From contig CAMCZF010000004.1 in the NCBI GenBank assembly GCA_945885775.1, positions 1 to 34,658 on the forward strand: a DNA stretch of 34,658 nucleotides. Direction: 5' to 3'. Every line of letters begins with the position of its first letter. The stretch's first letter is position 1. The stretch is from Rhodoferax sp. OV413 (GTDB lineage: Bacteria; Pseudomonadota; Gammaproteobacteria; Burkholderiales; Burkholderiaceae_C). A program made the position numbers and the translations under genes. Of the stretch, positions 13,413-15,539 are shown piece by piece. The notes under the pieces are model-generated. The model saw only the letters and a list, made by a program, of their open reading frames with translations, was not told the origin of the DNA and ran no database searches.

Positions 13413-15236
13413 TCAACCCGGCTTGATGCTGCCTGGCACGATTTTCGCCCCAAAATCCCGCATCATCGACTGCACAAACGGATCATCAAAAATGATTTTT
13501 TCGGCCGCCAGCTGGCGCTCGGCAGCAACAGCTGCGTTGCGGCGGGCCGGGCTGTCGCCGACCCGGCCCACTTCGACCACCAGTCGTACGGCATGACCGG
13601 CCCCCTGCAAGGCTGCAGCGAGTCGGTCACGCGTGCCGGGCTGGTTGAGTGATTCGCGTTCTACCCGAAGCAGCCACTGGTCAGTGTCGCGTGCCACCAG
13701 CTGCGACTGCAGCGCCAGTTCACGCACCAGGGCCGCAATCGCCTCCTGCTCAATCAGCTGCTGCACCAGGGCATGCCAAAACGCCCCGTCCTCGGTGGGT
13801 ACCAGCGCGGGTGATTTCGGCGTGATCACAGCTTCAGCACGTGAATCAGCCTGTACGCGAACCGGTATTGCTTCAATATTTGTAGCTAACACCTGAGTAT
13901 CCACGGGGCCTAGGGCAGGATTTGACAAAAAAGTGGACAAAGGACGCGCACCTGAAGCAGCACTGAGAACGGGCAGTTGCTGACCTGGCCTAAACGCGGG
14001 CTTCACCGCTATTGGAGTCACAGAAAATTGAACCGGATCCGCCACCAACAGCGTGACCGCAGCGATGGATGGGGCTGCAGATGTGGGTTCAAACCCCAGT
14101 TTTAGAGTTTTTTTTTCCGGCTCCGCTGTTGCAGCGCCCCGCGGCTTGAACGCAAGCAGGCGCAAAAGCACCATGGTCAGCGCCGCATATTCGTCAGGCG
14201 CCAAGCCCAGTTCGCCACGGCCGTGCAGGCACAGGCTGTACAGCAGTTGGGTTTCGTCGGCAGGCATGGCTAGCGCCAGGACAGCGAGTTCAGCCGCTTC
14301 CGGGTCGGTCTCGTCGGCTTCACTGGGCACGGCCTGCAATACCGCCATACGTTGCAACACCGTGGCCATGTCTTCCAGGGTGGCCGCAGCGCTCAAACCG
14401 TGCAGACGCAATGCCTCTGAGGTTTGCACCACGGCCTTGCCATCACTTTGCGCAAGCGCCTGCAACAGGTTGAAAACATAGCTGCGGTCAACGCTGCCCA
14501 GCATCTGACGCACGGTGGGTTCCTGCAGCCGACCGGCACCAAAAGCAATCGCCTGATCGGTCAGGCTTAAAGCATCACGCATGGAGCCGCGCGCGGCACG
14601 CGACAACAGCCGCAATGATTGGGCGTCGGCATCCACTGCTTCAGCCTTCAGCACAAGCTGCAAGTGCTCACGGATGGTCTCAGGCGCCATCGGTCGCAAA
14701 TTAAATTGCAAACAACGGGACAACACAGTCACGGGCACCTTCTGCGGGTCCGTGGTAGCCAGCACAAATTTCAGGTAATCGGGCGGCTCTTCCAGTGTCT
14801 TCAACATGGCATTGAAGGCCGTGTTGCTGAGCATGTGCACCTCGTCAATCATGAAAACCTTGAAGCGCCCCTGTACCGGCTTGTAGACGGCCTGCTCCAA
14901 CAATGCCTGCACTTCGTCCACCCCACGGTTGGAGGCAGCATCCAACTCGGTGTAATCGATAAAGCGACCGCTGTCGATGTCGGTACAGGCCTGGCATACA
15001 CCGCAGGGTGTCGCTGTGATGCCGCCCTGCCCGTCTGGCCCCTGACAATTGAGCGACTTGGCCAAAATGCGCGACACCGTGGTTTTGCCGACGCCGCGGG
15101 TACCGGTGAACAGGTAAGCATGGTGCAGACGCTGTGTCGTCAGCGCATTGCCAAGCGCCTGCACCACATGGTCCTGCCCCACCATTTCGGTGAAATTGCG
15201 AGGCCGGTATTTGCGGGCGAGCACAAGGTAAGACAT
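13413..15236 (-). CDS. dnaX: DNA polymerase III subunits gamma/tau
   Basis: [60 protein letters not shown]; zinc module [33 protein letters not shown]. Confidence 0.98.
14108..14116 (-). promoter_or_regulatory. A9 slippery tract in dnaX (candidate transcriptional/ribosomal slippage site)
   Basis: Coding strand GAG CCG GAA AAA AAA ACT CTA; the -1 frame reads AAC TCT AAA ACT GGG GTT TGA, the +1 frame reads CTC TAA. Confidence 0.65.
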
Positions 15237-15311: not shown

Positions 15312-15404
15312 GACGGGCCTTCCCGCATGGTAAAGCGGCCAACCGGGTCAGGTGGGGAACCAAGCAGCCCTAACTGTGGAGCCAGTGCCGGGGTCAGGCT
15401 CGTC
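15312..15404 (+). ncRNA. ffs: Small signal recognition particle RNA (4.5S RNA)
   Basis: GGTCAGGTGGGGAACCAAGCAGCCC conserved apical loop region, ...GGAGCCAGTGCCGGGGTC; terminal pairing GACGGGCC/GGCTCGTC. Confidence 0.93.
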
Positions 15405-15539
15405 AACCTTCAATTCGTTTTCGGACAACGAGTTGTGACCAAACCCATTGATAAAGCCATCGGGATTGGCTCTGAGCCGTCACAGGTGTCCAAAATCTAG
15501 GCGGGCCGTGCCCTCAGAAGGCAAAGCAACTCCTTGATA

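Follow-up and report, generated by a model that had tools for sequence, protein, structure and literature searches.

dnaX and its run of nine A's

The window, as we call the whole stretch of 34,658 nucleotides from Rhodoferax sp. OV413 that was analysed, carries on its minus strand a dnaX gene for a tau-like clamp-loader subunit. The encoded protein aligns with E. coli tau (PDB 8gj0, E=4.9e-113) and contains Pfam matches to the ATPase, the lid, domain III and tau domain V. The gene displays the following features:

13413..15236, minus strand: dnaX, tau-like clamp-loader subunit read in the zero frame (open reading frame and translation, 607 aa)
14142..15236, minus strand: DnaX domains I-III, comprising ATPase, lid and collar (Pfam and PDB alignment)
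14108..14116, minus strand: candidate slippery run A9, GAA AAA AAA ACT, in dnaX codons 374-377 (sequence and conservation)
14102..14104, minus strand: TAA, the stop for an mRNA with one A lost or two gained (simulated mRNAs)
14089..14091, minus strand: TGA, the stop for an mRNA with one A gained or for a -1 ribosomal shift (simulated mRNAs)
13428..13760, minus strand: tau domain V, polymerase alpha binding (Pfam PF12170, residues 493-603, E=1e-9)

Just upstream of dnaX, and divergent from it, lies a bacterial small SRP RNA gene (15312-15407, plus strand; Rfam RF00169, 62.4 bits), which is the single Rfam match in the window.

The A9 of dnaX has no counterpart elsewhere in the window, where 0.34 runs of nine A's or T's are expected by chance, and is one of four such runs in the 3.39 Mb draft genome. 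From the window by itself the run could be a chance occurrence; judged by its conservation among relatives, described below, it is not. The A9 runs found elsewhere in three genomes (G000, G129 and G064) were inspected, and no clear second case was recognised among them.

The run is located just past the end of domain III (residue 362 according to Pfam), and residues 1-374 of the window DnaX are covered by its alignment with crystallised E. coli gamma. We simulated dnaX mRNAs with 6-12 A's in the run and translated them. Those with 9, 12 or 6 A's gave full-length proteins of 607, 608 and 606 aa, so that the window tau needs no change of frame, unlike the product of a two-ORF dnaX. The other lengths gave truncated proteins: 377 aa with 8 A's (ending in EKKL), 378 aa with 11 (EKKKL), 382 aa with 10 (EKKNSKTGV) and 381 aa with 7. 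Domains I-III are common to the full-length and the predicted truncated DnaX, and tau domain V is absent from the latter; given the position of the run just after domain III, the truncated product would correspond to the whole clamp-loader core without the polymerase-binding domain. An earlier note on this DNA had claimed an A9 in dnaX with alternative frames leading to products of about 382 and 377 aa, ending at the junction between the ATPase/collar part and the linker; the run, both lengths and the position of the junction were all reproduced here.

Conservation of the run and of the out-of-frame stops

Of 53 congeneric (Rhodoferax) dnaX copies, 49 have an exact A9 at the corresponding position, a count that, like all those given below for relatives, takes no account of relatedness and is a guide rather than a probability, relatives not being independent trials. 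Sampling the Comamonadaceae with one genome per genus (120 genera) gave 77 genera with A9, one with A10, one with A8, two with the heptamer A_AAA_AAG and 39 with none of these. Among the named loci 73 of 80 carry A9, including those of Acidovorax, Comamonas testosteroni, Delftia acidovorans, Variovorax, Ramlibacter, Hydrogenophaga, Limnohabitans and Curvibacter, and the run is almost entirely missing from a panel drawn from the order's other families (exceptions L188, L190 and L196). On the DnaX tree (176 tips) the run-bearing rows fall almost all in one group, with 10 changes. The length is nine in 182 distinct genes, and A10 or A8 is found in only a handful; the linker around the run varies in sequence and length, with the run itself remaining constant.

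This constancy extends to the choice of codons. The residues EKK(T/S) are conserved at the site, and for the same residues the codon usage of each gene predicts retention of A9 in 9.4 of 126 genes. When the fourth codon of the run encodes serine it is AGY in 33 of 33 cases, compared with 41% of the serines elsewhere in the same genes, and in two loci (L026 and L246) Glu is replaced by Gln with the A9 kept. Stops in the shifted frames show a similar bias. A stop within 12 codons is present in the -1 frame of 84% of the 182 A9 genes, versus 23% in synonymous simulations, the median distance being 9 versus 46-48 codons; in the +1 frame the corresponding values are 98% and 72%. The latter figure is high because Leu CTG supplies C-TGA, and the +1-frame stop of the relatives is usually at codon 5 from the run. 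To remove this effect, the 30 A9 genes lacking a +1 stop at codon 5 were considered separately: 87% of them have a +1 stop within 12 codons, versus 14% with permuted codons. Both shifted frames are closed within 20 codons in 97.6% of the A9 genes and in 22% of the simulations. In the relatives, the run and its nearby stops are kept far beyond the expectation from codon usage, and these comparisons indicate that the stops are under selection in both shifted frames.

Several records depart from this pattern. One dnaX placed in the genus of the window (L049, genome G030) is without any run; its protein branches close to the clade's base in the trees, which makes a mis-binned contig possible. Two others, L041 (G012) and L050 (G039), possess an A10; their zero frame closes shortly downstream of it, and the C-terminal part of tau is encoded in another frame. 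They resemble the two-ORF genes described by Antonov et al., and an assembly error in the homopolymer is also possible. In Ramlibacter montanisoli (L299) an A7 replaces A9 and the fetched match has its zero frame interrupted at 362 aa, reflecting either a homopolymer sequencing error or a real two-ORF form. The dnaX linker of L120 (G204) reads GAN AAA AAG CCT GAA, with an N within the run, and its zero frame ends at 387 aa. Finally, a record titled Akkermansia muciniphila (L308) contains a Comamonadaceae-type dnaX with 83% identity to the query, so that its title or binning looks wrong.

Stimulatory elements and the Polaromonas-type heptamer

Shine-Dalgarno (SD)-like elements are not enriched upstream of A9 (12% of the A9 genes versus 22% simulated), and no downstream structure was found in the 182 A9 genes (mean z -0.22); the 61 nt downstream of the run in the window fold unremarkably (z -0.75). 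A downstream hairpin was rejected as stimulator on the lack of signal both in the window and across these genes. An upstream hairpin in the nascent RNA was likewise considered, and the slight shift observed (mean z -0.32 and -0.44) was not persuasive. The possession of two lysine tRNAs has been linked in a review to the use of slippage by Thermus (PMC5009743). Among ten other genomes checked here, eight encode tRNA-Lys CUU besides UUU and two (G037 and G223) UUU alone; the window's own draft genome shows UUU only, a reading weakened by its incompleteness (82% complete). The argument is weak in this family, since a Polaromonas-type genome (G155) also encodes both tRNA-Lys UUU and CUU.

The Polaromonas-type genes provide an internal contrast. 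In place of A9, A_AAA_AAG is found in each of the 30 loci fetched from the genus Polaromonas and in each of the five from a second genus (L341-L345). The heptamer is preceded, with small variations, by a conserved GGG AGY GCC GYC GAG CCN (L340 included), in which GGGAG is fixed 15 nt upstream, compared with 10 nt in E. coli dnaX. SD-like pairing is predicted in 93% of these genes versus 34% simulated, and no downstream structure was found in them. A stop within 12 codons is present in the -1 frame of 100% of them (26% simulated), and no such stop is kept in the +1 frame (24% versus 16%). Of the two stops, genes of the heptamer type thus retain only the one required for a -1 ribosomal shift, whereas the A9 type retains both. 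Besides GGGAG, the segment GCC GYC GAG, within the 20 nt upstream of the heptamer (L311-L345), is almost invariant in nucleotides, and it is common to two genera placed separately on the best DnaX tree.

The A9 and Polaromonas rows group together in a single clade that excludes the run-less rows tested (100/92). The best DnaX trees place Polaromonas inside the A9 rows, but DnaX rejects neither the alternative of a single A9 clade (p-AU 0.446) nor a single origin of the A_AAA_AAG type (p-AU 0.823).

These results bear on the remaining claims of the earlier note. It had described the site as lacking a strong upstream SD stimulator and as followed only by a weak hairpin, which agrees with the values above, and its proposal of Thermus-type slippage yielding a gamma-like subunit gains support from the run and the two stops kept in relatives. 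Alignment of relatives had been set beforehand as the comparison that could refute this proposal. The run and the nearby out-of-frame stops proved to be kept. Where AAG interrupts the run, in Polaromonas and the second genus, the E. coli frameshift heptamer is present instead, together with an SD-like element upstream of it, so that these relatives appear to retain the short product by different means.

A predicted slippage site, its alternatives and known systems

We propose that the A9 of dnaX is a programmed transcriptional slippage site that would allow tau and a gamma-like protein to be produced from one gene, a prediction to which we assign a probability of roughly 0.8. RNA polymerase would realign on the nine template T's, adding or losing A's, and the resulting dnaX mRNAs would carry A runs of mixed length. 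Those with 9 (or 6, or 12) A's would be read through to tau, while the others would meet a stop within a few codons in either of the other frames, giving a gamma-like product of about 377-382 aa (41 kDa) that possesses the ATPase and the collar and lacks the linker and the polymerase-binding domain. Both forms of the clamp-loader subunit would thus be obtained from one gene. The sequences show the run and the stops, place them at the domain boundary, and reveal a conservation of both that exceeds what codon usage would predict; from these we infer the slippage itself, how often it would occur, and that gamma would be made and used.

The +1 frame is never entered by -1 ribosomal frameshifting and is reachable by polymerase slippage, which makes its conserved stop the main argument for the latter. 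A -1 ribosomal shift on A_AAA_AAA, as performed by E. coli dnaX on A_AAA_AAG, would yield the 382 aa product only. In its favour, the heptamer lies in the frame required, conservation of the -1-frame stop is strong, and close relatives (Polaromonas) have the E. coli heptamer with an SD-like element. Such a shift would, however, leave the nine A's unexplained, seven being enough, as well as the AGY serines and the conserved +1-frame stop, and the A9 genes are without an SD or hairpin stimulator; as sole explanation we consider it unlikely. Since the frame reached by gaining one A is also the -1 frame, and A_AAA_AAA is usable as a weaker -1 site, ribosomal shifting could nevertheless contribute to the output of a slippage site.

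It is very improbable that the run is a chance by-product of a conserved EKK(T/S)L linker peptide and involves no recoding. The conservation of the EKK(T/S) residues fits this explanation, and Leu CTG alone creates the +1-frame stop in many synonymous simulations, but it accounts neither for a codon choice so far from that of the genes themselves (9.4 of 126 expected) nor for the invariable AGY serines, the A's kept when Q replaces E, the near -1-frame stop (median 9 versus 46-48 codons) or the different slippery signal occupying the site in two genera. Least probable of all is a contingency locus acting by phase variation at the DNA level. Homopolymers do change in length, and a few genomes have A10, the frame being split in two of these (L041 and L050); the length of nine in 182 distinct genes, with only a handful of A10 or A8, argues against it. 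Moreover, dnaX is an essential replication gene, as established for E. coli, so that switching it off is not a tenable phase.

If slippage operates at A9, the family would present one essential gene and one short product reached in two ways, by polymerase slippage in most genera and by SD-stimulated -1 frameshifting in Polaromonas and the second genus, a scheme that we regard as reasonably probable. Selection would then act to maintain the short clamp-loader subunit, and the decoding step behind it would be exchangeable. A 2012 review stated that most bacteria are without dnaX frameshift signals and may not make gamma (PMC3290774). In this family a signal has been retained in dozens of genera, and a different one takes its place where it is absent, which indicates that the short form is under selection. 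The prediction is directly testable, as the family has cultured members (Comamonas testosteroni, Delftia, Acidovorax, Variovorax). In the part of the literature that was searched for dnaX in Comamonas, Polaromonas and Burkholderia, no report of the site was found. The genome-wide slippage survey of 2005 excluded truncating sites by design (PMC1088944), which may be why the dnaX site is missing there.

The kind of site is already known, from slippage in Thermus dnaX, frameshifting in E. coli dnaX and the two-ORF dnaX genes with poly-A runs; the window site is a predicted addition to the Thermus kind, and what appears to be new is the fixation of A9 across a family and the alternation there of two decoding mechanisms, as proposed above. 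In Thermus thermophilus, transcriptional slippage at an A9 in dnaX (Larsen et al. 2000, as summarised in PMC5009743 and PMC1088944) was measured to give about 50% short product. The window gene resembles it in its sense-strand A9, its tau in a single open frame, the near stops in both other frames and the short clamp-loader product; it differs in that slippage, measured in Thermus, is here predicted from sequence, and in its distant, proteobacterial host family. With two-ORF dnaX (Antonov et al. 2013, PMC3711429) it shares a poly-A run that joins or splits the gamma and tau frames, but its tau is the zero-frame product, and within the genus only L041 and L050 look two-ORF. E. coli dnaX is the same gene with the outcome that is predicted here, and its -1 frame likewise meets a stop shortly after the shift; it uses A_AAA_AAG with the SD AGGGAG and a stem-loop, whereas the window has A_AAA_AAA within A9, lacks the SD element and a stable hairpin, and has a conserved +1-frame stop. 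The Polaromonas-type genes resemble that of E. coli in their heptamer and GGGAG core, and differ from it in the wider spacing and in the lack of a detected downstream structure.
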